Shown: positions 10,188 through 54,652 of the stretch, piece after piece
Numbering within the stretch: the first letter of the stretch is position 1
Layout of the letters: every line of letters begins with the position of its first letter
Source of the DNA: Halobacteriovoraceae bacterium
GTDB lineage: Bacteria; Bdellovibrionota; Bacteriovoracia; Bacteriovoracales; Bacteriovoracaceae
Assembly (NCBI GenBank): GCA_002712005.1
Contig: PASP01000005.1
Coordinates: forward strand, 1 to 64,000
Direction: 5' to 3'
Length of the DNA stretch: 64,000 bases
Translations under genes and position numbers: made by a program
Notes under the pieces: model-generated
Seen by the model: the letters and a program-made list of their open reading frames with translations, nothing else
Database searches by the model: none
Told to the model about the DNA's origin: nothing

Positions 10188-11993
10188 TTAGTGATTAAGA
10201 AAAGGCGCGATTTCGAGCTGGTTACCTTCATCTCTTGTAATCGAAGGGCTTAAACCGCTAGGGACTTCTTCAGGATGTGAGAGATCATTTCCAAGATCCC
10301 CCTCTACTACCGCCTCCTTATCCCAGAGACCATAGGCTACGAAATCAACTAATCCATTTAAGTTCTCTTCACTTAAGTTAACAGGAAAGTAAGACATGGT
10401 TTTCATATCTCCTCTCATTCCCGGTCCCCAAAAGTTAAGGCGATAAAAAGGGATTAGAGGATCGAGTTGTAAGAGATCATCAAAATAGGGCTTCAACACA
10501 TTTCCTCTATTTTTTTGAGTAATATTAATGGGCCCTCTTAAATGATAGTGAATAACATTCTTTAAAGAAGCTATGGCCTGATCTTCTAAATGATCAAACT
10601 TGTGCCCCTTAGCTCTCTCAGTTCCATGGTGAAAATACGGAAAAGTTTCAATCACATTTCTTAAAGGAGGAACGCGCATTTTAAAACAATCTTCCGTATC
10701 TGAACTTTGATTGGCCTTTCCTATATCTGGAGCCAGTCCATTTGAAGAAACTGTAACGTTACTCACATGGCACTCAGGAGCAAGGCCTCTTTGTAAACGA
10801 GGGCGATTAAAAAATCCGGTACGACTATCTTGGATAACTGTAGCCCTAGATAATGGACTTCTGTAGTCACTTCTTATTCCAAGACTATGAAACTGAGTGC
10901 CCCCAAAGGTTCCTCCATCATGGCAATTAAAGCACCCCGCACCTTTAATGACGAGGTCTTTATATTGGTATTCTTTTCCAAGAGGAGTAAAGAAGGAAAC
11001 CATACCGATTAATTGAGAACGCGTCAGAGACTCTTCTCCTTTTAACCAAGAATCATAAGGAGTTTCATCTGCAATATGAGTGCTAATAAAGCTCATTAGG
11101 GCTGCAGAGAGATGACGATCTCCAATGACATCAATTTTGTAGACGTCTTTAAATTTATCTCGATACCATTTAATACGATTAAGCTTGGCCAAGGTTATAG
11201 CTAAACATTCATTTCTAGTGGGAATGGAAATTGTATTATTAGGACGTTTATAGGGAATATGGTCAATGATAACAGGCTGACCATTGAATTTACCTGTATC
11301 TCTTCCTGTATAAGCATCAGCACTATTGGTGTGATAAATTTTAACGGGCTCTTTAAAAATGGGCCCTCCCTTACGAAAAGGATTATTTCCCTCAGAATCC
11401 AAAGCAATAGGATTGGCTCCACAAAGCTCTTCTTTAGTATGAATGGGTAGTAGAGTTTGAAACCCGAGATCACCAAAGCGGCCATCCCAAAAAAGGCCCA
11501 CATTCTTTGTTTTATCGATTCGATAAATCGTATTCACTGTACTGAGGCTATTTCTGAACATAAAGCTTTCTGCATAATATCCAAGAGAATCATCCCCTAT
11601 CGTTCGATCTGTACTTAAAACACCTTTAGCAAACGTTGATCCGACATTTCCTCCATGAGGTCCGCCTTTTCCCATCGCTCCTACATTTAAGGCATTACCA
11701 TCGGCAAAGCCATGGTTGGTTAGATGGCAAGTGGCACAGCTAATATCATTATTACGAGATAAAACGGGATCATTAAAGAGCATGCGTCCCAACTCCAATT
11801 CATTTGCACTTGGTACACGACCAAGGGCTTCATTGTAATTGGGCTTAGGGAGAATAGGTAGACGATCTTTAAAATCAGATCTCACCTGATTAGAAAACGC
11901 CTTATCCTTTATCTCTGACCAACGATGATTGTCACAACTAAAGAGAGATGAGAAAAGAATCATAGAAAATATAATCTGAATTCTTTTAAACAC
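10188..11993 (-). CDS. Di-heme cytochrome c peroxidase-family lipoprotein
   Basis: A 601-residue exported protein with two c-type heme sites, CATCH at 86-90 and CFNCH at 354-358, in the CcpA/MauG arrangement. The leader ends in SLFS-C (Cys20), suggesting a lipoprotein. Members reduce peroxide or oxidise protein side chains in the periplasm. It is longer than classic CcpA (about 330 residues), with extra sequence between and after the hemes. The start is a GTG with AAGGA six bases before it, 13 bp after the last pilin-like gene, so it is probably the last cistron of that operon. Whether it acts on the pilin-like proteins is speculation from position. Confidence 0.85.
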   Translation of the reverse strand: MFKRIQIIFSMILFSSLFSCDNHRWSEIKDKAFSNQVRSDFKDRLPILPKPNYNEALGRVPSANELELGRMLFNDPVLSRNNDISCATCHLTNHGFADGNALNVGAMGKGGPHGGNVGSTFAKGVLSTDRTIGDDSLGYYAESFMFRNSLSTVNTIYRIDKTKNVGLFWDGRFGDLGFQTLLPIHTKEELCGANPIALDSEGNNPFRKGGPIFKEPVKIYHTNSADAYTGRDTGKFNGQPVIIDHIPYKRPNNTISIPTRNECLAITLAKLNRIKWYRDKFKDVYKIDVIGDRHLSAALMSFISTHIADETPYDSWLKGEESLTRSQLIGMVSFFTPLGKEYQYKDLVIKGAGCFNCHDGGTFGGTQFHSLGIRSDYRSPLSRATVIQDSRTGFFNRPRLQRGLAPECHVSNVTVSSNGLAPDIGKANQSSDTEDCFKMRVPPLRNVIETFPYFHHGTERAKGHKFDHLEDQAIASLKNVIHYHLRGPINITQKNRGNVLKPYFDDLLQLDPLIPFYRLNFWGPGMRGDMKTMSYFPVNLSEENLNGLVDFVAYGLWDKEAVVEGDLGNDLSHPEEVPSGLSPSITRDEGNQLEIAPFLNH

Positions 11994-12006: not shown

Positions 12007-12882
12007 TTATTGAATGATCATAAAACCACTATCATGCACACCAGTCTCTTGAATAGGTCCAGATAAATTCCTCAATTGAACAATGGGCAGACGATTACAG
12101 TTCTTTTCTTTTGAATAGCGATAACAAGGATCATCTAAGATAAAATTATAAGCAATAAAACTATCTGGATTCTTATTTCTATTCATAAAGATCATATACC
12201 CTGCTCCCAATAGGTACTTTCTTTCTGAAAAGGAAGGAATCTGCTTCCAAGTATTATTCTTGTAATAGAAGCTGACAACACGGTAATCACTACGTCTTCC
12301 AGAAATTCTTGTGGAACTACTCTGCGACCCACTCGCATTTTTGGTTGAGCAGTGGATTTGGATTTTTTCATTTTTCTTAACAATATAGGGCCTACGCGGT
12401 AAATCTAGGGCCTCCTGTAGGGTAAAGTCTCGATCTTTATAATCTGTAGCAGATACACACCTGGTGAAGTAAAGTCCGTTCGTCCCTCCCTTTTCTTTCA
12501 CAAGAGTAAAAGAGTCGACATAGAAATTCACATTACCGAAACGACCAGCATCAATGGTTTGTTCGAGATCACCTCGGGAAGAAATACTATCTATATCAGA
12601 GTGATTCCAGTTTACGAGATTTAGATTTCTCATATTATTGCCCTGAAAATAGGTATTTTCGTAATCAAAGCTCTTCCAACTCAAACCATTAGAGTGAGCC
12701 GTTGTGTACTTTAATCCTAAATTGAGTAAGGACTGAATCGAAAGTTTAGTTGAAGTATTCTTCTTTTGTTTATTGAGAACTTCAATCCCATAATTCATTC
12801 CTAAACTTAAAATACCCAGAAGTCCTGCAGCTACGAGAACTTCTGAAAGTGAAAATCCTTTTTCACACTTTAAATGCGTCAT
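12007..12882 (-). CDS. Prepilin-like protein (type IV minor pilin/pseudopilin)
   Basis: The N-terminus MTHLKCEKG|FSLSEVLVAAGLLG is a type III prepilin leader: short, charged, Gly before the cut, Phe+1 and Glu+5, then a hydrophobic helix. The mature body of about 280 residues matches nothing I recognise. The frame extends to 12909, but the ATG at 12882 has a good GAAGGA site and puts the cleavage site at the usual distance. It lies 10 bp after the 1030-residue pilin-like gene and 13 bp before the cytochrome peroxidase. Confidence 0.78.
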   Translation of the reverse strand: MTHLKCEKGFSLSEVLVAAGLLGILSLGMNYGIEVLNKQKKNTSTKLSIQSLLNLGLKYTTAHSNGLSWKSFDYENTYFQGNNMRNLNLVNWNHSDIDSISSRGDLEQTIDAGRFGNVNFYVDSFTLVKEKGGTNGLYFTRCVSATDYKDRDFTLQEALDLPRRPYIVKKNEKIQIHCSTKNASGSQSSSTRISGRRSDYRVVSFYYKNNTWKQIPSFSERKYLLGAGYMIFMNRNKNPDSFIAYNFILDDPCYRYSKEKNCNRLPIVQLRNLSGPIQETGVHDSGFMIIQ

Positions 12883-12892
12883 AATTCCTTCT

Positions 12893-15800
12893 TTATTGAG
12901 GTAGATCAATTAAATCAAAAGCACTGAGACCAATAATATTAAGTAGGGCCCTACCTGACTTTGAACCAATCATCTGGTCTTTCTTAATTATATGTCCTGA
13001 ACATGTTGAGTAGTAGGAAATTCTACTGACCTTTCCATCACCACCAGTCAAACATAAGTGACTTCCCTCAGGGGACTTGGCCGATTTTGAATTATACTTA
13101 AAACCAAATTTTCGAGAAGTACTTCCCAGAGTGACATTAACATAATTCCCAGGACCTGGTTTCTTTCCAGATAAGACCAATTTCTTTTTCGATCCATAAG
13201 CATCTTTGATATCTATATCGACTCCAGAAAGTGCACTATCTATAATCCCCTTCCACTCAGGAAGATCTTTTTCCACATCTGATGTCGTGGTATTTAGATT
13301 CTTGGATTGGCTTAAGTGGCTAGATGTCGTAATTTGAAAACTACTATTTGGGGCCAACTCTATATCGTCAGGATCAATTGGATTCCCCGTTAACTCGGCA
13401 CGTGGATTAATATACTCTCCGTCACCATTAATAACCGTGTAACCATTATCAGCACCAGTTGGAGTGTATTTGGTCGTAAGTCCAACTTGCTTTAAGTCTG
13501 TCGAAGCATAGAACCAATTCTTATCATAATTTAAAGGACTCCCATTGGCCTTCATACCAACCCAGGCAAAGGGTATAGAGTCTACAGTTGTTTGATCTGG
13601 ATTTGGAAAACCATAGCGAGGAGAAAAGGAGTTTAAGGCATTCATAGCAGAAACCCATCCTACAGGAGTGGTCGGAGGAATGAATAGACCTCCTTCTAGC
13701 TTACAAATACTATCGCCCTTATCTTGGTCCGTACTCTTATTCTTACTGATAAAAAAGTTTCCATCAATTCTCTTTCTACGACAAAGAAAAGGGATCCTTC
13801 TAGCACCAAATGGTTTCTCCAAAGCTGAAGGAAATAATCCCTTAAACTTAACGTGATGAGATAAAATAAAACCTTTAGCACCTGCACTTTGTGCAATTCC
13901 TAAATTCTGAGGATAGGTTTTTGATTCAAGTGCCCCTCCAACAGAGAAATATAGAGCGTACTTATCTTGAGGGGTGTAATTGGGAGCAATAGGCGCTCTG
14001 GCCATGATATTGTCTTTACCATCTCTAACCATCGCTACCCAAAACTTTTTATTATTGCTGATACCGTTTGTTGTAAACCATGATCCTAAATCAACAATAT
14101 CTTGCTTAAATTGAGGGGCAAGAAAAATACCCTGTTGAGATAGGTTGATGAAGTCATAGTTTCCATCAGCATTCTTAGGAGCGCTAAAAGACTTTCCTAA
14201 GTACTGGTCTAATTCGGAAACTCTAGCGACTTCTCTCCCCATTGAAAAACAACGCCTTGGCGCTTCATTATATGTCACATAAGAGAGGGCCTCTTTATCG
14301 GCTGAGATATCCTTGGCCAATCTATAACCACCAAAATTGTAACAAAGGACTGGAAGTTTTTGATCACAATCTTCTGCAGAATATTCTAGTTGATTAGTCG
14401 CTTTATTAAGCTTTGCAGAAATACATTTTGAAGAAGATGCCCCCCAAGGAGTTCCTACTTTCTTCGTGCCAAATAAAACAGCGGGGGAATTAACTAGAGT
14501 TCGATCTTCTTTAAGACTACATTCAGGTAATGATGAATCAAGAGGATGAGTTGGCATCTTGGCCATGGGACCAAAAGTTCCAATCCCAAACTGACTACAG
14601 TTTTTCATATAACAGGCCGTACATCCGAGTTCTTGTCCTGAACTATAAGAAAAAGTATCTCCATTTTTACCCGATACAAAATTAACTTTTAAAAAGGGAG
14701 TATAACGATCTTCCCAACTGGCATCATTAGTATTGTAATTTGTACTTTCCGTACAAACCTTCTTACATATTCCTGTGGCATTATCACGATTTTTATCATT
14801 GATGGTGAAGGCCAAAGTATGGGAGCTGTTAATTACTGAGGGAGTCCCTATTTCTTTTTCTTTGTTATCAAAATTATAAGATTGGGCCTCGTAATTAACT
14901 AAATCCCCCCCCTCGGCTTTCTTTAATTGAATACGAGGATTAATTCTCATCGACTTAGAATAATTACCATTATTAATTTTATTGTATTCGTTATATTGAA
15001 TATTCGTAAAAAGATTAATTGGACCATAAACTCGACTTTTCGAATTCACTTGTGGACAGCGATATCTTGTTTCATTACATGATCCGAAGATATTTTGTGA
15101 GCTATCTGTAGTAATGAAATTTCCATTATTGGTAATTAAACCGGCTTGAGCTTGTGTTTTTTTCCAATTGATATCAATGGGCTCTTTCAAGTTTCCTGTA
15201 AAACCAGAGCGGTTATATATCGTTAGTCCCGAAGGGTCAGAAGCTCCTGCACCATTTAGTGAAAGCTTAACTTTCCTATCATTTGGTAGCGTATAATCAC
15301 AAAGTCCTACGTTAGGAGCCCAGAAAAAATCAGACATCACTTTCTTTACACGATTGCCATGCTCATTATTAAAATAAACTGTAGCATTGATTTCAAAGCC
15401 AATGTCTTTGGCATCAAAACGCCCAGCTTCATTTATGCTTAGTTTTTTAAAGACCTCATTTCCCCCATTCGTATTGGGGTTCATATTTACAGGATAAATA
15501 GCAACTGTAGCATTAATATCCTGTTCTTCAATTTGAGACTTTGAAAACGAAGAGGCCAATTTATCGTGATTGATTTTATAACATTTACCCCAAGCCCCTT
15601 TGATATCACATTCTTTATGTTGGCTTTCATTCCATGAAGTCAAAAAGTTATCCCAATTAGAATCTTTGAAGACTTTGGAAGAGTTCTTAAAATCAATAAA
15701 TATTGCCCCTACTCCCGGACTATTTGCCGTAGTCGATACAAGAGGACAAATACCTCGTACTTTATTTCCCTGCTTATCTTCACTCTTGGCCAAAAGATTC

Positions 15801-15985
15801 GTTGAACCTTTAATGAGATCGTCTACAAGAAGAGAAATATTGGATGTGGTCTCTGCTTTTTTAGTCGTCAGGTGAGTAATGGCTCCCGTCTTAAAGAGAA
15901 CGACTCCCCCAATCGCGACAATACCAGTCGAAACCAGTATTTCGGCCAAACTAAATCCTTTATTATTTCTTAATAATTTCTTCAT
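12893..15985 (-). CDS. Giant prepilin-like protein (about 1030 aa), possible pilus-tip adhesin
   Basis: The leader MKKLLRNNKG|FSLAEILVSTG has a canonical prepilin-peptidase site with Glu+5, so the protein should enter a type IV pilus or type II secretion pseudopilus. Ordinary pilins are 130-250 residues; this one carries about 1000 residues of extra ectodomain, rich in cysteine, Asn, Ser and Gly. Two segments (around CYNFGGYRLAK... and APRRCFSMG...FWVAMV) faintly recall C-type-lectin-like folds; that is a weak impression. The middle cistron of a three-pilin operon, it is most easily pictured as a tip protein taking part in adhesion. Confidence 0.72.
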   Translation of the reverse strand: MKKLLRNNKGFSLAEILVSTGIVAIGGVVLFKTGAITHLTTKKAETTSNISLLVDDLIKGSTNLLAKSEDKQGNKVRGICPLVSTTANSPGVGAIFIDFKNSSKVFKDSNWDNFLTSWNESQHKECDIKGAWGKCYKINHDKLASSFSKSQIEEQDINATVAIYPVNMNPNTNGGNEVFKKLSINEAGRFDAKDIGFEINATVYFNNEHGNRVKKVMSDFFWAPNVGLCDYTLPNDRKVKLSLNGAGASDPSGLTIYNRSGFTGNLKEPIDINWKKTQAQAGLITNNGNFITTDSSQNIFGSCNETRYRCPQVNSKSRVYGPINLFTNIQYNEYNKINNGNYSKSMRINPRIQLKKAEGGDLVNYEAQSYNFDNKEKEIGTPSVINSSHTLAFTINDKNRDNATGICKKVCTESTNYNTNDASWEDRYTPFLKVNFVSGKNGDTFSYSSGQELGCTACYMKNCSQFGIGTFGPMAKMPTHPLDSSLPECSLKEDRTLVNSPAVLFGTKKVGTPWGASSSKCISAKLNKATNQLEYSAEDCDQKLPVLCYNFGGYRLAKDISADKEALSYVTYNEAPRRCFSMGREVARVSELDQYLGKSFSAPKNADGNYDFINLSQQGIFLAPQFKQDIVDLGSWFTTNGISNNKKFWVAMVRDGKDNIMARAPIAPNYTPQDKYALYFSVGGALESKTYPQNLGIAQSAGAKGFILSHHVKFKGLFPSALEKPFGARRIPFLCRRKRIDGNFFISKNKSTDQDKGDSICKLEGGLFIPPTTPVGWVSAMNALNSFSPRYGFPNPDQTTVDSIPFAWVGMKANGSPLNYDKNWFYASTDLKQVGLTTKYTPTGADNGYTVINGDGEYINPRAELTGNPIDPDDIELAPNSSFQITTSSHLSQSKNLNTTTSDVEKDLPEWKGIIDSALSGVDIDIKDAYGSKKKLVLSGKKPGPGNYVNVTLGSTSRKFGFKYNSKSAKSPEGSHLCLTGGDGKVSRISYYSTCSGHIIKKDQMIGSKSGRALLNIIGLSAFDLIDLPQ

Positions 15986-16012: not shown

Positions 16013-17152
16013 TTAATGTGGAGGTTCAACATAAATCGTTGTGATATTTTGTTCGAGTTTTCCCTTGAAGGATCCTTCTTCTTTAATCACTTCATTATTT
16101 AGTCTGAAGGGCTCGATTCTTGATAATTTACTATTAACTTTAATATTGTAATTTAGACTCCCTGCAGGTTCGGAGTGCTGAGAAATATTCTGTTCCGTTG
16201 TAGTAGGTCCCGAACCTGTTACAGTTTTCGTAATATTTTGAACGAATGTCCCACATTCAACTTGATCAACCCATTCTACTTTATTTCCAGCCTCTAAGAA
16301 GTCATTAAGAGGCACATCGACAGTTGAAGCTGCTGGTGCTCTCACTCCTTCGACTTCTCTTCTAAAGACAACATTTCTTTCGTAGTCAATATCGTAGAGA
16401 ACCCCAGGGCCTAAGTTTTCGGTTAAAGCCACAACATCTGTTTTGGTATTCACATCAATGGTGAAAGGTCCTCTACAAGCAGGAAAGGGATGTTCTCCTT
16501 TAGAGGCATTACAAAGACTAATACAAGTAGAATCTAAAACGGTGAGTTTTGGAATTGCGATGGGTCTTTTAAAAACAGCCCCAGCAGAAATCTTTTGATT
16601 TTCTTCGTTCTTACTTAGCATGAGATTTAAATCAACTTTTACTACATAGTGATCATCATCAATGGCCTTAACTTCCTCTGACTTCACCCCTACAACCTTC
16701 TCGAGAGCCTTATCTTTATTTGTATCAACAAGTTTAAGAGATACAGTTCCTGGGAAAAGGCTGAGAACTTTATTACTTTTAAGCTTTCCATGCATTTGAT
16801 GATTTAAAATATCAAAGGTTAAATGATTTCCATCAAAACGGAGATTCGTAAATCCAAAATCTTCTGGCTTATAGGTTTTTTCGGCTTTTGTTCCTGACCA
16901 TTGACACTGCATGGGGGTATTTCCAGCTCCCCAAGGCTTACTCTTACAAAGGATTAAATTATTACTAATTAAAAAGCCTGCCATTGAGAAAATCTTCTTG
17001 GCTTCAGCTCGTGCCCTAATATCCTTAATCTCTTTGGCCGAGATATCACTCGATTGCTGAGACGACTTAATCATATAAAAGCTTCCTACCCCTACGGCCA
17101 CCATAAAGACTAGGGCTGCTCCTAAAGCGACTCCTCTCTCATTTCTTAGCAT
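16013..17152 (-). CDS. PilX/GspK-like prepilin protein
   Basis: Starts MLRNERG|VALGAALVFMVAVG: a prepilin-type leader and hydrophobic helix, but position +5 is Ala instead of Glu. Loss of Glu+5 is typical of tip pseudopilins of the GspK class and some PilX proteins. The remaining 350 residues are not recognised; a cluster of cysteines lies near 215-230. An in-frame TTG lies 6 bp upstream (17158), abutting the AAGGA site; the ATG at 17152 has proper spacing. It is the first gene of the pilin operon, 28 bp before the giant pilin gene. Confidence 0.72.
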   Translation of the reverse strand: MLRNERGVALGAALVFMVAVGVGSFYMIKSSQQSSDISAKEIKDIRARAEAKKIFSMAGFLISNNLILCKSKPWGAGNTPMQCQWSGTKAEKTYKPEDFGFTNLRFDGNHLTFDILNHQMHGKLKSNKVLSLFPGTVSLKLVDTNKDKALEKVVGVKSEEVKAIDDDHYVVKVDLNLMLSKNEENQKISAGAVFKRPIAIPKLTVLDSTCISLCNASKGEHPFPACRGPFTIDVNTKTDVVALTENLGPGVLYDIDYERNVVFRREVEGVRAPAASTVDVPLNDFLEAGNKVEWVDQVECGTFVQNITKTVTGSGPTTTEQNISQHSEPAGSLNYNIKVNSKLSRIEPFRLNNEVIKEEGSFKGKLEQNITTIYVEPPH

Positions 17153-17353
17153 GATCAATCCTTGCGTTCCTTATCTCAATTTCCTACTTAGTAAGAATTA
17201 AGAAAAGTTAGTATTTTTTATTTAATAGTTGAAAGTATAATACAAGTTTGTAAATCATGGTAAAAATTAGAGATTTAACACTTTTTACCTACTTTAACCG
17301 GCAAGAATTGTGGTCAGTAGAAGTCTTATCTAAGCTGAAATTATGGATTAAAA

Positions 17354-18259
17354 TTAAAGGAAATGGGGCTGAAACTTCGATAATTGCTGTTTAATGACTA
17401 GCGGGTCTGCACGATGAGACTTGTTGAAAAACCAAATATTCTTATCGGCTATTTTTCGATCAAAATAAAGTTTCCCACTTTCAGGTTCCTTCACTCGTCC
17501 TAGAAGCCAGACAATTGTGTCCGATCCTTCTTCTGCACTTCTTAGGTTAGGTCCAACAAAATCAGAAAATTTACCTAAAGCACCGCTGAGTCCTGGTGTG
17601 TTGACCCAACCAGGATGCATGGCCGTAATGTTGAATTCAGCAAATTCTTCTGCGCATTTAGGTAAGAATTCAACCATGGCCCTTTTGACATTGGCATAGG
17701 CTTCAACCTTGTCGTAGCGAGAACCTAGGAAGAATTGATCCAAGTTAAAGGACTTTAAATACATTCCACCAGAAGTCACCCATACGATGCGGGCCTTATC
17801 TTTGAGAAGTCTTTTTCTTTTGAGAAGCTGAATCAGATAAAAGTGTCCAAATAATTGAGATGCTGCTTGTATCTCAATACCTGAATCATTGGTGGAGAAG
17901 CGATCAGGCATTCCACCTGCATTTAAAACAATATAATCAAATTTAGGCATATCAAGAATGGCAGAGGGAAAGCTACTCCATTCTGCAAGATCAAAAGGAA
18001 CAAAATGTAGCTTGTCATCTTTTGAAGTATAGGCTTCGCCCTTTTCCCTATTTCTTCCTGTGACCCAGCAATTAAGATCAAATTGTTTGAGTTGCTCTGC
18101 AACCGATTGTCCTATTCCTGAAGTTCCTCCAGTGATCAGAACATTTTCTTGAGGTTTGAATTTATAGATCTCTTTTTTAAAATACTCTTTTTGATGACGT
18201 TTAAATCCACGTTTATCAAAACTAAAATAAATACTCTTATCTAATAACTTATTCAACAT
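17354..18259 (-). CDS. Short-chain dehydrogenase/reductase
   Basis: A 301-residue SDR with an N-terminal extension of about 38 residues, the cofactor loop TGGTSGIG, NAG in the fourth strand, a catalytic Ser in VTSGG and YANVK giving the Tyr-x3-Lys pair. It is the last gene of the operon that starts with the MerR regulator (24028) and includes CFA synthase. SDRs of this type recur in such clusters, where they probably act on a modified fatty acyl or lipid-derived carbonyl, but the substrate is unknown. It lies 24 bp after the NTF2-like gene. Confidence 0.85.
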   Translation of the reverse strand: MLNKLLDKSIYFSFDKRGFKRHQKEYFKKEIYKFKPQENVLITGGTSGIGQSVAEQLKQFDLNCWVTGRNREKGEAYTSKDDKLHFVPFDLAEWSSFPSAILDMPKFDYIVLNAGGMPDRFSTNDSGIEIQAASQLFGHFYLIQLLKRKRLLKDKARIVWVTSGGMYLKSFNLDQFFLGSRYDKVEAYANVKRAMVEFLPKCAEEFAEFNITAMHPGWVNTPGLSGALGKFSDFVGPNLRSAEEGSDTIVWLLGRVKEPESGKLYFDRKIADKNIWFFNKSHRADPLVIKQQLSKFQPHFL

Positions 18260-18283
18260 AGAATCAAAAAACCCTTTGTGACT

Positions 18284-18706
18284 TTATACTTTTAATTTTC
18301 GACAAAAATAACGATATATTCTCCCAACAATAGGAAGTTTACTTAATACTTCTTCTCCTACATCCCAATAGTCTCGATGATAATAGATGAGATCATTTTC
18401 ATCAAGTTTCAGAAAAGAACTTCCATGGATGAGAAATTCTTTATCTTTGATCAAGAAAATAAAGTCCCATGTAACAAAGAGACTTGAATCTTCTTGGACA
18501 GACTCTTTTATGACAAAACGTGGGTTATCCAAGGATTCAAACATATGAGAAAAGATCTTCTTTATATCTTCAATAGAATGAATTTCATTAAAGGGATCTT
18601 TAAAAAAGGCTTTTTGGGAATAAACGGATCCCATATTCTCAAGACTATCAGGAGTCATATGGGTGTAAAAATCTATAATTTTATTTTTTACTTCTTTATT
18701 CACCAT
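18284..18706 (-). CDS. SnoaL/NTF2-like protein
   Basis: A small protein of about 140 residues with the cone-fold pattern of SnoaL/NTF2-like proteins: an N-terminal helix (FYTHMTPDSLENM), YSQKAFFKDPFNEI, and alternating strands up to YYHRDYWDVGEE. In the family the pocket binds small hydrophobic ligands, and homologues are common in MerR-CFA lipid clusters. The gene overlaps the end of the DUF3833 gene; a TTG (18709), ATG (18706) and GTG (18703) are all possible starts behind the AAGG site, and I take the ATG. Confidence 0.7.
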   Translation of the reverse strand: MVNKEVKNKIIDFYTHMTPDSLENMGSVYSQKAFFKDPFNEIHSIEDIKKIFSHMFESLDNPRFVIKESVQEDSSLFVTWDFIFLIKDKEFLIHGSSFLKLDENDLIYYHRDYWDVGEEVLSKLPIVGRIYRYFCRKLKV

Positions 18707-19235
18707 CAACCTTTTTCATAATAAGAGTAATTTCACCAACGTCGAATCCCCATTTTGACATTCTAGACTTGGCCATAAGAGTATTCTCGTCAATCAAATG
18801 CATCCAATCATCTACATAAATTTCATATTCTGACTCATCGACATTTATTTTTAAATCATATGTAAAATGAAAGGTATTGCCAGCGAACTCACCTTGTGCG
18901 GTACCTACAATATCTGATGCCCGCCCTGTTAAACTTTGAGTTTTAGGATCATAAGAAAGTTTCCAAATACGGCGCTGCTTGCTTCCATCTGCATAGGTGA
19001 AACGCTCATCGAGTTCACCTTCATCACCATTCCAAGTTCCGACAATATCACAATTGAAGCGTTTAATCACTTCACCACTTCGATTCGTAACCATTCCTTG
19101 GGCGATCATTTTGCCTGAAAAGAATTTCTTAGGATGAAAAACAGGGTTTTCGTCTTTATAGATATCAAGACTATTTTGAGAACAAGATACTAAAAATAAA
19201 AATAGAAAACCTAAAATACTCAAACGATTTAACAT
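18696..19235 (-). CDS. DUF3833-family lipoprotein
   Basis: A 179-residue protein with a lipobox (LVS-C, Cys18) and the body of the DUF3833 family: F-x-G-K-M-x-A-x-G (FFSGKMIAQG), GTWNGDEGELDERFTYADGS, and a C-terminal DDWMHLIDENTLMAKS. The family is lipocalin-like and regularly encoded beside CFA-synthase-like and chalcone-isomerase-like proteins. Its biochemical role is unknown; a lipid-binding or transport function in the envelope is an inference. Confidence 0.8.
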   Translation of the reverse strand: MLNRLSILGFLFLFLVSCSQNSLDIYKDENPVFHPKKFFSGKMIAQGMVTNRSGEVIKRFNCDIVGTWNGDEGELDERFTYADGSKQRRIWKLSYDPKTQSLTGRASDIVGTAQGEFAGNTFHFTYDLKINVDESEYEIYVDDWMHLIDENTLMAKSRMSKWGFDVGEITLIMKKVDGE

Positions 19236-19247
19236 ACATTACCTACT

Positions 19248-19766
19248 TTAAATATTTAAAAGACTCTTTCTTAATTCAGGACCAGAGGTCTCTTTACCTA
19301 ACCATATATCTAAGAATCTTTTGGAATCTTCAATATTTGTCATTTCTCCAATCATCTTTTCTTCATTAAGATAGAAGCGTATCCCTTTTTCCTTATCAAA
19401 TTGGGCAGAAATACGATCTCCTTTCTCAACATCGGGAAAAATAGATTCAAATAACTTCATAAACTCTTCTTTTTTTTGAGCACTCAAGCTTGACTGAGCA
19501 TTCATCTCTTTCACACTTTGTTTCGCAATATCCTTGCCATTTAGAGACATTTTATACTCCAGTTCTAAAATTAATTTCTTACTATATAGTTCGTCTTTAC
19601 TCTGACCTTTTGGAAGAAAGAGCTTAGCGGTATAGACATCAAGCCACATCCACTCATACATTCCTTCTCCACTAAGTTCTAATTTATCTTTGTTAACCAT
19701 CATTTCACTGGAATAAATAGTGCTTATATGGCCTAGGATTAATAATAAAAAAAGTAACTTCTTCAT
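19248..19766 (-). CDS. Chalcone isomerase-like exported protein
   Basis: A 172-residue protein with a signal peptide (cut likely near TIYSS) and the segment GEGMYEWMWLDVYTAKLFLPKG that marks bacterial chalcone-isomerase-like proteins. These are not flavonoid enzymes; the fold also occurs in fatty-acid-binding proteins, so periplasmic lipid binding is plausible. It is encoded between CFA synthase and DUF3833, 21 and 12 bp away. Confidence 0.75.
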   Translation of the reverse strand: MKKLLFLLLILGHISTIYSSEMMVNKDKLELSGEGMYEWMWLDVYTAKLFLPKGQSKDELYSKKLILELEYKMSLNGKDIAKQSVKEMNAQSSLSAQKKEEFMKLFESIFPDVEKGDRISAQFDKEKGIRFYLNEEKMIGEMTNIEDSKRFLDIWLGKETSGPELRKSLLNI

Positions 19767-19787
19767 TAATTTACCTTTGTATAAAGT

Positions 19788-20987
19788 TTATTTTTCTAAA
19801 ACATAGTGAGACACATCAATCTTTCCTGCTCTAAAGCCACCTTCACAATATTTTAAGTAAAAGTGCCAAAGACGGTGGAATTTTTCATCAAATCCTAATA
19901 AAGAAATCTTTTCTTTTTGTGCCGTATAATTCTTATCCCAATTCCTTAGAGTTTCAGCATATGATTGTCCAAATCTAAAACGGCTTTTAAATCGTAATCC
20001 CGACTCTTTCGCCTTTTCTTTAAATAATTTAGGACAAGGTAACATTCCACCAGGAAAGATCATCTGCTGAATAAAATCTGAACCTTTACTATAGGATTTG
20101 AAGTCTTCATCATTCATTTCAATCGTTTGAATGACGGCCCTTCCCCCTGGAACGAGAATTTCTCTAATTTTTTCAAAGTAACGACTCCAATATTCCTTCC
20201 CTAAAGCTTCAAACATTTCTATCGAAACGACATAGTCAAACTGACCTTTCACATCACGGTAATCGCAAAACTTGATTTCTACCAATGGATTATTTTTAAA
20301 CTTCTCTTTACAGTACTCGAATTGTTCCTTTGAAATAGTAATTCCCGTTACATGAAGACCAGCATCGGCAGCTTCTTGTAAAAAACCACCCCAACCACAC
20401 CCAATTTCGAGAATGCTTCTTCCCCCATAGGCATCGAGTTTTCTTAAAATTCTTTGATATTTATTTTTCTGGGCCTGTTGTAAATCATCTGATTTCTCAA
20501 GAAATAATGCACTTGAGTAGGTCATCGTACCATCAAGCCAAGATTCGTAGAAATCGTTTCCAAGATCATAGTGAGCGTGTATATTCTTCTTGCTTCCTTC
20601 CTTATTATTTCGATTGAGGAAGTGTTTGAATCTATAATAGAGAATATTGACAAAACTACCTGATACAATTTTTTCAAGGTATTTTTGGTTTTCAATTCCA
20701 AAAACAATTAAATCATCGATATCAGCACAGCTCCACATTCCCTGTCTATAACTCTCACCTAAGCCAATATCTCCACTTCCAAGGATCATATCTAAAGCGT
20801 CCCAGTCATGAATATTAAGAGTTACATCGATTCCCTTTAACTCACCTTTAAATTCAGAAAATTCACCGGAAGGATAGATGATTTTTATACTTCCTTTTCG
20901 AACCTTCTTTAATAAACTGAAAAAAGCTCGTGCTCGATAGGGAAGCCTCGCTTTCTTCGTATTAGATGCTGATATTGTAGTCGCCAT
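19788..20987 (-). CDS. cfa: Cyclopropane-fatty-acyl-phospholipid synthase family methyltransferase
   Basis: About 399 residues. It transfers a methyl or methylene group from SAM to unsaturated acyl chains of membrane phospholipids. Visible features: GLGESYRQGMWSCADIDDL (about 80-98), HAYDLGNDFYESWLD-type segment (HAHYDLGNDFYESWLD), SAM motif ILEIGCGWGGFLQEAA, and QTIEMNDEDF...YSKGSDFIQQMIFPGGMLP near the C-terminus. An in-frame ATG lies at 21005, but the ATG at 20987 has a GGAAGGAAG site at the right spacing. Partners in the operon hint at further modification of the methylated chain, as with methylated or furan fatty acids. Confidence 0.9.
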   Translation of the reverse strand: MATTISASNTKKARLPYRARAFFSLLKKVRKGSIKIIYPSGEFSEFKGELKGIDVTLNIHDWDALDMILGSGDIGLGESYRQGMWSCADIDDLIVFGIENQKYLEKIVSGSFVNILYYRFKHFLNRNNKEGSKKNIHAHYDLGNDFYESWLDGTMTYSSALFLEKSDDLQQAQKNKYQRILRKLDAYGGRSILEIGCGWGGFLQEAADAGLHVTGITISKEQFEYCKEKFKNNPLVEIKFCDYRDVKGQFDYVVSIEMFEALGKEYWSRYFEKIREILVPGGRAVIQTIEMNDEDFKSYSKGSDFIQQMIFPGGMLPCPKLFKEKAKESGLRFKSRFRFGQSYAETLRNWDKNYTAQKEKISLLGFDEKFHRLWHFYLKYCEGGFRAGKIDVSHYVLEK

Positions 20988-21738
20988 ATGTGTCTTCCTT
21001 CCCATAGGGGATTGGTTTTTTGTAGAATTTAACTTTTTTCATAAAAAGCTTTAAAGCCTGCCAATGAATTAGAAATGTCACTTGGAAGGTAAATAGTGGA
21101 AGCTTAAAGAAGAGTCTTCTTAACTCTCTAGGGCTTAATTCTCTTTCTTCAAGAGCATCCATAGTTGCAATAAACTTAAGTTCATTTTGATTAAAATATT
21201 TAATGCTAATTTTATTAGTAAAAGAAAATTCATATTGCCCCTCTCTTGGATAGAACGGGGAGACATGAAATTCTTTGGGTAATGTCATTGATTCTTGTTC
21301 ATCTATTTTAAGAATATAATTATGAGATTCTCCAAAAGTGTTATTTACCTCACAGATAATGGCCTTCAATTGATTATCTGATGCAGGACCTTGATAACAA
21401 TACCAAAAACTAACCGGATTAAAGGTATATCCTAGGATTCTTGGAATCGATTGCAAAAGGATATCCCCTTCCACTTGAAGGGAAGCTTGCTGGAGTTTCT
21501 CTTGTGCCCAAGTACGATAAACCACTGAGAGCTCTTCCTCTTTATCCTCGCGATAAGCGTGATCTCTTGTATAAATAGAGAAAAGACCCATACGATTAAT
21601 ATTCAGGCCAAATCTCTTTCCTTTAATTACGGAGAAATCATTCAAGTTGATTCGAACTTGAAATCCTTTATAGCGAAAGGCATTCACGACCGGTGAAAAT
21701 CTTTTATGATAAATGGAGCTATAAAGAATTTTATTCAT
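20962..21738 (-). CDS. DUF1365-family protein
   Basis: About 258 residues, with family segments IYHKRFSPVVNAFRYKGF at the N-terminus, RILGYTFNPVSFWYCY in the middle and ESHNYIL. DUF1365 genes sit next to a flavin amine-oxidase-like gene and a CFA-synthase-like gene in many proteobacteria; some such gene sets are linked to furan-containing fatty acids in Rhodobacter sphaeroides. The biochemical role here is unknown. The ORF opens at 21765, but MNKILYSS at 21738 fits the family start. It overlaps the FAD gene upstream and the CFA gene downstream. Confidence 0.85.
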   Translation of the reverse strand: MNKILYSSIYHKRFSPVVNAFRYKGFQVRINLNDFSVIKGKRFGLNINRMGLFSIYTRDHAYREDKEEELSVVYRTWAQEKLQQASLQVEGDILLQSIPRILGYTFNPVSFWYCYQGPASDNQLKAIICEVNNTFGESHNYILKIDEQESMTLPKEFHVSPFYPREGQYEFSFTNKISIKYFNQNELKFIATMDALEERELSPRELRRLFFKLPLFTFQVTFLIHWQALKLFMKKVKFYKKPIPYGKEDTYGDYNISI

Positions 21739-23029
21739 AGATTTCCAAGTCTCTGTGCTTAGCACCTGTATGTTTGAAGAATTGATTCAATACTTTCTTA
21801 GCTGACAAAATTCCATCTTCATGAAAACCATAACGCATCCACGCTCCGCAAAAGTAGAGCTGGTCTATTCCTTGAAGACTCTCCATCTTCTCTTGCGCAC
21901 TGATTGTATTTTCATCAAATACAGGATGTTCATATTCAAGTTTTTTCCAAATTTTATCAGGGTTAATTTTAGAGACGGGATTCAGTGTGACAAGGATTGG
22001 GTCTTTAATAGGTAAAGGTTGTAATTTATTAATTAAATACGTTACAGAAACCCCTTGTTTTTTTGCGGTATCACTTTCTGAAGATTCGGAGGAGCGATAA
22101 TTCCATGCTGACCAAAACCTCTTTTCGGGCAAGATCTGCTTATCCCAATGAAGAACGGCCGTATTCTTTGTATAGTGAAAATGAGAAAGATTCTCTCTCA
22201 CTCGCAAATTGATATCTTTTACAATTTTTAAAGATTGTGGCGGATGACAACAAAAGATAATGGCATCAAATTGCTCTTCTCGATGAATGGTTTTCAATCT
22301 CACTTTCGATCCCACCTTCATGACCGATATAACGGGCTCATTTAGGTATTTATTTTCGATACTATTTAAGGCCTTTTCTACATAAGTAGCACAACCTCCT
22401 ACTAAGGTCTTCCACTGAGGTCTATCAGTCACTTGTAAAAGACCGTGATTAATACAGAAACGAATAAAGGAATAGGCTGGAAAAGAGAGCATCTTATCTA
22501 CAGGTGTAGACCAAATACATCCTCCCATGGGAAGTAAGTACCATTTTTTGAAGTCTTCCGAATAATTAAATCTAACGAGTAAATCACCTAAACTCAATTC
22601 GGGAGAAACTGTCGCAATTTCTAAATAGTGTTGACTATTTTTATTAAAGCGTAAGATTTCTGAGACAAAACGATAGAAGCGCGGACTTAAAATATTCTTA
22701 TACTGTCCAAATAAAGTGAGCAAATTGGTCCCCGCCCAAGAAATATTGTCGTTGGGCTCAATAACACTAAAACTCATATCGCTTTCATGAGTTTCTATAC
22801 CTAATTCATCAAAGAAATGAATTAAATTTGGATAGGTGCGATTATTGTGAACAAGAAAGCCCGTATCAACTTTTAAGCTATGTCCCTTCCACTCAATATC
22901 ATGGGTATGAGTGTGCCCTCCAAAGTGATCATCACTTTCAAAAAGAGAGACTTCATAGCCTAACTTATTTAAGTAATAAGCACTCGAAGTACCCGCAATT
23001 CCTGAACCTACAATAGCTATTCTCTTCAT
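21731..23029 (-). CDS. FAD-dependent amine-oxidase-like oxidoreductase
   Basis: A 432-residue flavoprotein with an N-terminal dinucleotide fold (IVGSGIAGTSSAYYLNKLG), acidic end of strand two (LFESDDHFGGHTHTH), then VDTGFLVHNNRTYPNLIHFF, and near the C-terminus FCGAWMRYGFHEDGILSA, which closes the FAD site. This subfamily is consistently paired with DUF1365 and CFA-like genes and is thought to oxidise or desaturate lipid-bound acyl chains. It is encoded 63 bp after the MerR gene and overlaps DUF1365. Confidence 0.87.
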   Translation of the reverse strand: MKRIAIVGSGIAGTSSAYYLNKLGYEVSLFESDDHFGGHTHTHDIEWKGHSLKVDTGFLVHNNRTYPNLIHFFDELGIETHESDMSFSVIEPNDNISWAGTNLLTLFGQYKNILSPRFYRFVSEILRFNKNSQHYLEIATVSPELSLGDLLVRFNYSEDFKKWYLLPMGGCIWSTPVDKMLSFPAYSFIRFCINHGLLQVTDRPQWKTLVGGCATYVEKALNSIENKYLNEPVISVMKVGSKVRLKTIHREEQFDAIIFCCHPPQSLKIVKDINLRVRENLSHFHYTKNTAVLHWDKQILPEKRFWSAWNYRSSESSESDTAKKQGVSVTYLINKLQPLPIKDPILVTLNPVSKINPDKIWKKLEYEHPVFDENTISAQEKMESLQGIDQLYFCGAWMRYGFHEDGILSAKKVLNQFFKHTGAKHRDLEIYE

Positions 23030-52312: not shown

Positions 52313-54499
52313 TCATTTTACCTCAAGAGAGGTTTTTAGTCCGTTATTCTTTTGAAAGTTACTAATCAGGTCTATCCCCTTGAAATTACCTTCGGAAAAG
52401 TGATGAATAAAGGACTGTTCGCTATGAGTAGTCCCCGAAACTTGCCCATATACGTGGACATTGGCCACACCAAAGAGTTGAAAGTAGTAGACCTTACTTT
52501 CGGCCTTATTAAGAAAATGATCCATAAACTTGGCCATTCTCCATACAGGTAACTCACGATCTCTTTGTGATTGAGACTTTTGCGCTAATCTCTGTAAACA
52601 ACTATTCATATACTTTCTTTTACGACTCGAACTTAAATAGCCTCTTCGCCTAGAATAACTCTTCATGTCTGATTCACAGCGTTTATACATTTTTGCATCT
52701 AAAGCATTTGAACTCAGCTCTATTTGATAGAGATCGTACTGACTCTTTAGCTTTCTTTCGCAACTACTAAACAAAGAAGAAAGCCAGCCAAAGAAGCCAC
52801 GCGGACGACTGGAATCACAAATACGGTCGAAAATCTTATAGACCTCTTCAGGATTCAGATGATTAAAGTAATCAATACCATCTTTAGTCATTGAATATTT
52901 ACTATAGAAGCGAAGAGACTTATCTAGAAGGCCTGATTCGACTTGATCTATAACGAGAGGATCTACTCCTGAATATTTTTCTAAATACTCAACTAACTCC
53001 TCTCTATTATTTCTTGAACCTTTATAGGCATAATAATTTCTAATAAAGTTGAGACTTAATTTTTCCTCGGAGTCATCTTCTTGATACAGAAGATCTTTCT
53101 TCGATTCAATTAGATTCGTCTTATTCTTATATTGTATGGTTACGGCCCTAGAGCGTTCTTCAGAATTAGAAATAATACTTTTTAAATCGAGGAAGGACTT
53201 AAGAACAATTCCAAAAAGTTTACTAAAGATATTCTGTCTATAACTTCCCGACTCAAAATTATGAGAAAAGAATGAATGGAGATGATCTTCTTTGGTGATT
53301 TTATAGTGTGTCGTTTTTGCTTTTTTCTTGCCCCCAAAGAGAAGTAACTGATATCTTGAATCCTTGGCCAACTCCTTACGTTGCTCATGAGATACAATAT
53401 AAGGAGCAAGCGCTCTTTCATCTGCTTCTTCTTGTTTAAGAACGGATGCCACCTCACGGCCAAGACTACTTTGATTGGCCAAGATATCGCGATCAGTATC
53501 ATCAAAGCTGAGCGCAAATGAGTAGCTCTCTTTTAATGAATAATTAAAATCATATTTAAGTAAAGAGACTTGGAGTACACCTAGAAAGTCAGCAACGACG
53601 CCGGCACTGACGCCAGCAGAAAGAGTCGATGATTTCTCTGAAGCGATTCTTAGCCATTCCCCTTGATAGTTGAGCTCATCAGCGGATACTCCTTGAAGAG
53701 TAACGTAGGAAAGTTTGTTATACTTAACAAGAGCGCCTACATGGGCAGCTAGTCCAGTTCCTATCGATGCATTTCCGGCAGCTCCAACGGCCAAACTAAT
53801 GGAATCTTCTTTTTTTAAGAGCTCCCCTCTTTCGATCTGAAGATAATTCTCAGAGCGAAAATTTAAATAACTAAAGAAGAGTTTATCTAAATTATAGGCC
53901 AAGGCCTTCTCGTAACTTTCTTCATAATGAACATAGGTGTAGGAACGTTTGAAAGTCACCCCAGCAAAGAGGCCAAGTTGCTCATCCGTAATATCGATAA
54001 TTTCTTCATCTCTCAAATTACCGAGAAGATGAGTTGCACTGATATAGAGGTCAAATTGATCTGTTGCTATCCATAAATCATCTGAGAAAAGATCGGGAGC
54101 AACATCTCTTCTTAGCTCTACACTGAAATTCCCAAAGCCCTTAGAAAAGCTTAATCCTATATGATTGAGTCCACCCCATGCCTGAAGTCCACCACTTTCT
54201 CTAATCTCATCGATTTGCTCAGAGGCAATAGCATCGGAATGCTCATTAAAGTATTGAGTGACTTCTCTAAATATTGGATTCTCATTACCTAAATTTAGAG
54301 AAGATGTTGAAAGAGATTTAGAGACGACACCATTTTTAAAACTCTTTAGGGCAACTGACTCTTTCTCTTCCTTTTGTCCATATTGGGAGAGGGCCTGTTT
54401 ATCTTTAATGGTAAAATGATCTTGAGCGTTTGCATGGAGGCTCAAGATTAAACTAGAAAAAATAAATGTAATGCGAAGTCTTAGACTTAATTTCTTCAT
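52313..54499 (-). CDS. Large exported orphan protein
   Basis: About 728 residues with a signal peptide (MKKLSLRLRITFIF...LHANA|Q). The N-terminal 350 residues have many alternating strands (GLSFSKGFGNFSVELRRD, SAGVSAGVVADFLG) as in a beta-rich envelope protein; the rest is charged and helical, with an Arg/Ser/Cys-rich part near 590-650. I recognise no family. The ORF runs up to 54517, but the Met at 54499 gives a normal signal peptide. The 88-bp gap to the REC gene suggests separate transcription. Confidence 0.6.
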   Translation of the reverse strand: MKKLSLRLRITFIFSSLILSLHANAQDHFTIKDKQALSQYGQKEEKESVALKSFKNGVVSKSLSTSSLNLGNENPIFREVTQYFNEHSDAIASEQIDEIRESGGLQAWGGLNHIGLSFSKGFGNFSVELRRDVAPDLFSDDLWIATDQFDLYISATHLLGNLRDEEIIDITDEQLGLFAGVTFKRSYTYVHYEESYEKALAYNLDKLFFSYLNFRSENYLQIERGELLKKEDSISLAVGAAGNASIGTGLAAHVGALVKYNKLSYVTLQGVSADELNYQGEWLRIASEKSSTLSAGVSAGVVADFLGVLQVSLLKYDFNYSLKESYSFALSFDDTDRDILANQSSLGREVASVLKQEEADERALAPYIVSHEQRKELAKDSRYQLLLFGGKKKAKTTHYKITKEDHLHSFFSHNFESGSYRQNIFSKLFGIVLKSFLDLKSIISNSEERSRAVTIQYKNKTNLIESKKDLLYQEDDSEEKLSLNFIRNYYAYKGSRNNREELVEYLEKYSGVDPLVIDQVESGLLDKSLRFYSKYSMTKDGIDYFNHLNPEEVYKIFDRICDSSRPRGFFGWLSSLFSSCERKLKSQYDLYQIELSSNALDAKMYKRCESDMKSYSRRRGYLSSSRKRKYMNSCLQRLAQKSQSQRDRELPVWRMAKFMDHFLNKAESKVYYFQLFGVANVHVYGQVSGTTHSEQSFIHHFSEGNFKGIDLISNFQKNNGLKTSLEVK

Positions 54500-54652
54500 T
54501 ACAAACCCACTAACCAAAGATTTACTATCGGCTCTATACTTTAGCTAATCGGTCAAGAAACTCTATACTTTATAAGGATAAGAGGTGATTCGAGAGTTAT
54601 TCTCATGATTTATAGGATAATCTTTAAATTTCTTATATTTAAAAAGATTCAG

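Follow-up and report, generated by a model that had tools for sequence, protein, structure and literature searches.

A diverse range of pilins is known to carry grafted binding modules, the most extreme multi-domain example being an 860-residue protein with 12 copies of a motif (PMC8179133). PilB and PilC of Streptococcus sanguinis, in which a pilin leader and helix carry a bulky module, have been modelled at the pilus tip and are described as adhesive (PMC8179133). We analysed a window of 64,000 nt from a Halobacteriovoraceae bacterium (GenBank assembly GCA_002712005.1, contig PASP01000005.1, positions 1 to 64,000), in which a gene at 12893..15985 (-) encodes a giant prepilin of a seemingly similar plan; unlike PilB and PilC, however, it has 1030 aa, no extra domain recognised by databases, and fixed partner genes. 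The giant is best read as a modular minor pilin displayed at the tip of a type IV pilus, its family being new and served by a heme protein of its own. This reading was favoured because a prepilin leader and a constant prepilin partner were found together with no match in this genome to the tip protein PilY1, in a search that gave no signal in control genomes either.

In Myxococcus xanthus, KilL-KilM-KilN form a minor-pilin heterotrimer in which one member is a giant with a variable domain; several alternative tips of this kind exist, act in predation and affect prey range (PMC12075869). The Kil tips belong to the Tad family and are related to TadE/F/G, whereas the module described here consists of N_methyl-type prepilins, and no tad link was found. 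Cluster_1 of M. xanthus combines the minor pilins X, W and V with a cytochrome c, which is needed for the tip adhesin (PMC8833165); our operon likewise joins three prepilin-like genes to a heme protein. That cytochrome, TfcP, has one CxxCH motif and a cytochrome c-like fold, whereas the partner here is a two-heme CCP/MauG-family protein; moreover, the adhesin of cluster_1 is a separate PilY1.1 and FimU is present, whereas here the giant would take the adhesin role (PMC8833165). ComZ of Thermus thermophilus is likewise a pilin proposed as a tip-associated receptor (PMC6561018). The two-heme partner shares the CCP_MauG domain with MauG and the bacterial two-heme cytochrome c peroxidases and is nearest in sequence to 1iqc, but differs from them in its length of ~600 aa, in being a probable lipoprotein, and in having been detected, at E 1e-60, solely in genomes that carry the giant. 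The module combines the ideas of the grafted-module pilin, the trimeric giant tip and the heme-served tip in a family that Pfam and NCBIfam know only by its leader. Among the titles and abstract openings listed from an open-access library, we found no account of the giant family or of any link between a CCP/MauG enzyme and minor pilins.

The giant prepilin and its operon

The giant gene is an intact open reading frame of 1030 codons with an ATG start and no internal stop, and a TAGGGA stretch ends 5 nt upstream of the ATG. Its product begins with the class III leader MKKLLRNNKG followed by FSLAEILVSTG, with both Gly(-1) and Glu(+5) present, and has the hydrophilic leader ending in Gly or Ala and the ensuing hydrophobic tract of ~21 residues that define class III prepilins. 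The match to Pfam N_methyl (E 4.4e-4, 20.2 bits) fell about 1 bit short of the cut-off of 21.2, and an ortholog at locus L051 exceeded it with 21.9 bits; across 22 giant leaders, position -1 was Gly in 21 and Ala in the other. The canonical prepilin leader claimed in an earlier note on this DNA was therefore borne out, and so was a size far above that of an ordinary pilin, the giant being the longest open frame among the 11 N_methyl matches in its own genome (E up to 10). The ectodomain had also been described as Cys-rich. This description holds in a milder form: the 20 Cys residues (1.9% of 1030 aa) represent an enriched rather than an extreme content, and 18 of them fall in alignment columns with Cys in at least 92% of 23-25 relatives.

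Judged by its sequence, the giant belongs to a family that Pfam and NCBIfam models recognise only at the leader. The ectodomain gave nothing usable in either database, with neither an enzyme domain nor a redox domain recognised, and the giant as a single query found no match among PDB sequences up to E 10; PF05567 (PilY1) did not match it at E 1. The gene is conserved in 24 of the 368 phylum genomes, which excludes a chance open frame. In genome G001 (L010 6471-9557), one TAA splits the giant gene into parts of 795 and 219 aa, so that either the copy is broken or the assembly is wrong at this point. The own genome also contains, on contig C17 (L018:5227-7518 +), a second long prepilin-like protein of 763 aa, which exceeded the N_methyl cut-off and had no NCBIfam match at E 1e-5.

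The operon reads, 5' to 3' on the minus strand, X-like gene, giant, W-like gene and two-heme CCP/MauG-family gene; the V-like slot of the giant follows from gene order only. The X-like and giant genes are separated by 27 nt, the giant and W-like genes overlap by 17 nt (from the listed TTG), and 13 nt lie between the W-like and heme genes. The X-like prepilin (16013..17158 (-)) has 381 aa from the listed TTG, an ATG two codons in, at 17152, being the likelier start. Its N-terminus, NERG followed by VALGAALVFM, is leader-like and lacks Glu5, as do PilX and GspK; it had no Pfam match at E 1, and no prepilin or pilin family was matched by any of nine X-like orthologs. The W-like prepilin (12007..12909 (-), 300 aa from the listed TTG) matched N_methyl above the cut-off (E 3.2e-5). 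Thus the giant does lie between two prepilin-like proteins, as the earlier note had stated. Scans for promoters and terminators at the operon returned no more than in shuffled sequence.

Predicted domains of the ectodomain

The full-length model of the giant was of middling quality, with a predicted local distance difference test score (pLDDT) of 67.1 and a predicted template modelling score (pTM) of 0.43. The class III leader occupies residues 1-10 and the alpha-1 helix residues 11-66 (15788..15985 (-)); the helix was predicted over residues 13-66, and pLDDT was below 50 for most of residues 1-46. An immunoglobulin (Ig)-like beta sandwich followed in the structure model at residues 267-458 (14612..15187 (-)), its best Z of 8.0 being at a commonplace level. 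Foldseek with the full model gave FliD as the best match (E 2.5e-3), and the other matches listed were mostly low-probability arrestin, Ig-type and major histocompatibility complex chains, which we took as commonplace. An unrelated secreted enzyme, the outcome that the earlier note named as counting against its proposal, did not emerge, since the giant showed no recognisable enzyme domain.

Residues 828-998 (12992..13504 (-)) form, in the predicted structure only, a domain resembling D2/D3 of FliD. In VIA, this stretch matched FliD of Bdellovibrio bacteriovorus (6kty) with a Z of 10.0 and a root-mean-square deviation of 4.9 over 131 residues, and superposed on other FliD and flagellin structures at ~2.5 Å over ~100 residues. 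Sequence searches gave no FliD support for this stretch, which could be aligned in six genomes. The extra module of ComZ is a beta-solenoid, unlike that of the giant.

The Cys-rich region spans residues 505-828 (13502..14473 (-)). Modelled alone with 24 rows, it adopted a confident fold (pLDDT 88.7, pTM 0.87). Its profile produced six weak matches in PDB (0.035-0.92 in a search to E 10), of which five are C-type lectins by name (E-selectin, conglutinin and tetranectin among them); the sixth is a 134-aa chain labelled TNFalpha, which we take to be a tetranectin-based binder. Sub-profiles of the region returned lectins in two of three matches, in none, and in three of four matches, codakine being counted as a lectin. 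In our judgement, strands and helices follow one another in a way that fits a C-type lectin fold, and a lectin-like nature of residues 505-828 is possible. Pfam gave no lectin match for the region, and in VIA none of 289 chains reached a Z of 2, a missing fold match that does not amount to proof of a new fold. Evidence for an internal repeat was weak when the second and third lectin-like segments were aligned with each other (hhalign E 0.0031, probability 10%), and no repeat was detected with the first segment.

Distribution and the two-heme partner

A first single-sequence search of 59 genomes, including the own genome, gave matches in seven, two of them at leader level, and a first scan of named genomes detected none. 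A profile search of 368 phylum genomes (E 1e-9) identified 24 giant carriers, which fall into four families; of 25 matching genomes, G024 was dropped because it matched only profile positions 5-65, the leader. A six-row alignment used as the query identified at least 12 carriers among 129 genomes of the window's own family (G000, the own genome, and G001, G004, G016, G035, G060, G111, G114, G122, G123, G124 and G149), a lower bound since up to six candidates were scored per genome and the completeness of some genomes falls as low as 56%. At E 1e-3, 107 of the 129 genomes matched; in those uncounted, the best E was no stronger than 2.5e-8 and the matches listed reached no further than approximately profile position 104, within the leader region. 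Public records among the relatives include Bacteriovorax sp. BSW11_IV, one contig of which holds the entire module, and a metagenome-assembled genome of Bacteriovorax stolpii.

The X-like profile (E 1e-6) matched the same 12 of 129 genomes as the giant and no others (9 of 73 good genomes). Counted by eye, the X-like gene was immediately upstream of the giant in 21 of the 22 loci where the contig permits, the exception being L072 with the order giant-W-X; L012, L057, L078, L080, L082 and the second copy in L075 do not enter this count, as contig ends or frame breaks obscure the adjoining gene. X-like proteins from the other families of the phylum all matched the own-family X profile (10 of 10, E 3e-47 to 1.7e-13 against a target of 10 sequences), although one (L055) of the 11 rows of this profile was in the wrong frame. 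The W-like profile matched at the module in all 12 own-family carriers and in 7 of 12 carriers elsewhere in the phylum; in G252, G272, G273, G274 and G275 it matched away from the module over leader-sized stretches. In G311 (L075 5015-14804), the X-giant unit occurs as a tandem duplicate in which the second X-like gene is spread over two frames. In L070 and L071, the module is flanked by large genes whose starts resemble, as we presume, fibre proteins known from Bdellovibrio.

The two-heme protein (10188..11993 (-), ~600 aa) matched PF03150 (CCP_MauG) at E 1.1e-30 with 107.7 bits against a cut-off of 25.6, and has the heme motifs CATCH and CFNCH. It is probably a lipoprotein, its signal sequence having been judged by eye. 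By sequence, the nearest structure was the di-heme peroxidase 1iqc (E 1.3e-28), the best MauG reaching 3.7e-14. MauG proper, the tryptophan tryptophylquinone maturase, was rejected as an assignment, as TIGR03791 scored 73.2 bits against an equivalog cut-off of 443.85.

A six-row profile of the two-heme protein (E 1e-60) matched 13 of 368 genomes, every one among the 24 giant carriers. In the own family, the gene is present in 9 of 12 giant carriers, always next after W, and is cut by the contig end in G004, G111 and G124; another gene occupies its place in G035 and G123, and G114 stops at the contig edge. Within family f11, G272 has the gene in convergent orientation to the giant; in G273, G274 and G283 it lies on a separate contig. 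Since the giant of G273 and G274 lies several kb inside its contig and the two-heme gene is not its neighbour, the two genes are unlinked in these two genomes; in G283, a contig end intervenes. Simple counting gave chances of 8e-18 by genome and 3e-9 by genus for this co-occurrence, values that are too small because operon linkage and kinship inflate the association. The co-occurrence argument therefore rests on the unlinked cases.

At the same threshold, 11 of the 24 giant carriers had no two-heme protein, including G114, which ends at the contig edge. No Trp, Tyr, Met, Cys or His of the giant was conserved only in enzyme-bearing genomes when 12 rows with the enzyme were compared with 12 rows without it (L053 and L060, of uncertain enzyme status, were excluded). 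This result speaks against a residue-specific maturation common to all carriers. In L070, L073 and L075, which belong to other families and have no two-heme protein, genes for pyrroloquinoline quinone (PQQ)-type propellers (BamB-like) lie near the module; HTTM-like membrane proteins (L073, L075) and a MauE-like protein (L073) occur nearby, below their cut-offs. If the enzyme matures the giant, the PQQ-propeller and HTTM/MauE-like neighbours might take over this task in lineages without it.

Pilus machine, rival explanations and surrounding genes

The own genome has a type IVa pilus cluster on contig C4, with PilT- and PilM-family matches over the cut-off and best matches below it for PilB-, PilC- and PilA-like proteins. 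The PilB profile at E 1e-100 matched 128 of 129 own-family genomes, a count that also catches the related type II ATPase (in the own genome, 2.4e-199 for PilB vs 2.3e-168 for the ATPase); PilB-level matches (E <1e-180) occurred in 113 of 129 genomes and in 102 of the 117 in which no giant was found. The type IVa machine is thus common where the module is absent, and we regard the module as accessory to it, or as an alternative tip. The G035 module has as its neighbour a divergent PilA-like gene whose product is 48% identical over 132 aa to PilA of the own genome. PilY1 (PF05567, E 1e-5) was matched neither in the own genome nor in the 368 genomes, a search that gave no signal in the control genomes either.

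We lean towards the operon encoding an alternative tip complex for a type IVa pilus. On this reading, all three prepilins would enter the inner membrane and be processed by prepilin peptidase; their N-terminal helices could then assemble them into a cap that primes pilus growth, and PilA added below would carry this cap outward. The ectodomain of ~960 residues, presumably disulfide-rich, would be the exposed binding module, a role played elsewhere by PilY1, and the two-heme enzyme may serve it in the periplasm through maturation or protection from oxidation. The genes, their leaders, the operon spacing, and the linkage and co-occurrence across genomes are observed, while tip assembly, use of a type IVa pilus in preference to other machines, adhesion, disulfides and the role of the enzyme are our interpretation. 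Most likely, the giant sits at the pilus tip and binds something there; prey adhesion is a plausible candidate function. The earlier note had proposed a possible tip adhesin that would matter for prey contact if the organism is a predator, of which tip display of a modular pilin is the best supported part and an adhesive fold was not confirmed.

Several observations weigh against a pilus tip. Glu5 is absent from 9 of 22 giant leaders. The size and the separate predicted domains of the giant would suit a pilin with a grafted module, but its pilin head matched no solved pilin. Homology to PilV, PilW or PilX past the leader was not found with Pfam and NCBIfam, whose matches were at leader level only, among them TIGR02523 PilV at E 0.18. 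For residues 505-828, Foldseek gave best E values of only 0.52 in PDB and 0.81 in a viral library, leaving the adhesive fold unconfirmed. The module does not adjoin the main pil cluster, and a complete-looking type II secretion pseudopilus in the same genome could in principle use such subunits. In addition, the giant of L076, L077 and L079 is not flanked by a W-like gene, so that only X and the giant form the constant core.

This type II secretion system, a gspD-E-F-G-H-I-J-K-like cluster read by eye, would allow the trio to be an accessory pseudopilus tip with the giant as a cargo-recognising secretion adaptor rather than an external adhesin. The J-like pseudopilin and the W-like protein do share a leader, and the hhalign alignment between them covered 29 columns, leader only; a further alignment, with the own GspK, covered 21 columns with a probability of 1%. 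We consider this explanation unlikely: the system already has its own H-I-J-K-like set and lies on a different contig from the module, and in G035 the module stands beside a PilA-like gene. Binding of DNA for uptake, rather than of prey or surfaces, has a model in Thermus, where a large competence-associated pilin was proposed as the tip DNA receptor (PMC6561018); for our module this carries only a slight probability. A Tad-pilus tip of the Myxococcus KilL-KilM-KilN kind follows the same logic of three minor pilins including one giant, and tip-like complexes predicted by structure have been described for Bdellovibrio bacteriovorus (PMC12075869). However, the leaders of the giant and W-like proteins are of N_methyl type, and no TadE match was obtained for the X-like, giant or W-like proteins at E 1 with PF07811, a weak probe here. 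The three TadE-like matches of the own genome were weak, below the PF07811 cut-off, and on C4 and C16, away from the module. On this weak probe the Tad assignment is disfavoured, and we regard it as very improbable. One of these stretches (C16:213405-213530 (-)) lies in a 927-aa open frame that possibly encodes a TadG/KilN-like giant of a Tad system.

The heme partner bears on two further proposals. As a dedicated maturase, it would oxidise or cross-link the giant in the periplasm, giving a tip with an oxidised or cross-linked head; we think this quite unlikely, and know of no precedent for a peroxidase-matured pilus tip. Alternatively, the four genes could form a redox device in which the giant itself carries out redox chemistry or deals with peroxide at the cell surface, with the pilus as its carrier. 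The presence of the giant in all 13 genomes with the two-heme protein is in line with this, as are the PQQ-type propeller genes in the neighbourhood of the L070, L073 and L075 modules, but the enzyme-free carriers, the lack of a recognised redox domain in the giant and the lack of residues conserved solely in enzyme-bearing rows speak against it, and we gave it the least credence of all.

To return to the type IVa tip, the type IVa pilus of Bdellovibrio-like predators is reported as essential for predation, and Bacteriovorax sp. BSW11_IV, a giant carrier, is named among marine periplasmic predators (PMC5430801). With the giant detected in just 12 of the 129 family genomes, predation would not in general depend on the module, provided that the other relatives are predators. 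How predatory Bdellovibrio-like bacteria recognise prey is an open question, for which the module names concrete tip candidates, from a phylum with no PilY1 match in a search lacking a positive control. We know of no description of the tip of a predator type IVa pilus. The most interesting point is the role of the two-heme enzyme for the pilus tip: its co-occurrence with the pilin, alongside TfcP of Myxococcus (PMC8833165), raises the possibility that heme proteins repeatedly serve pilus tips.

Elsewhere in the window, a 734-aa protein is encoded at 52313-54517 (-), with no Pfam match at E 1e-3. Upstream of the operon lie a short-chain dehydrogenase (SDR) gene and then a cyclopropane-synthase/DUF1365 run, taken as unrelated to it. 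The genes at 17354-23029, encoding SDR, DUF3833, chalcone-isomerase-like, cyclopropane synthase, DUF1365 and amine oxidoreductase proteins in one run, are perhaps a lipid-modification cluster.

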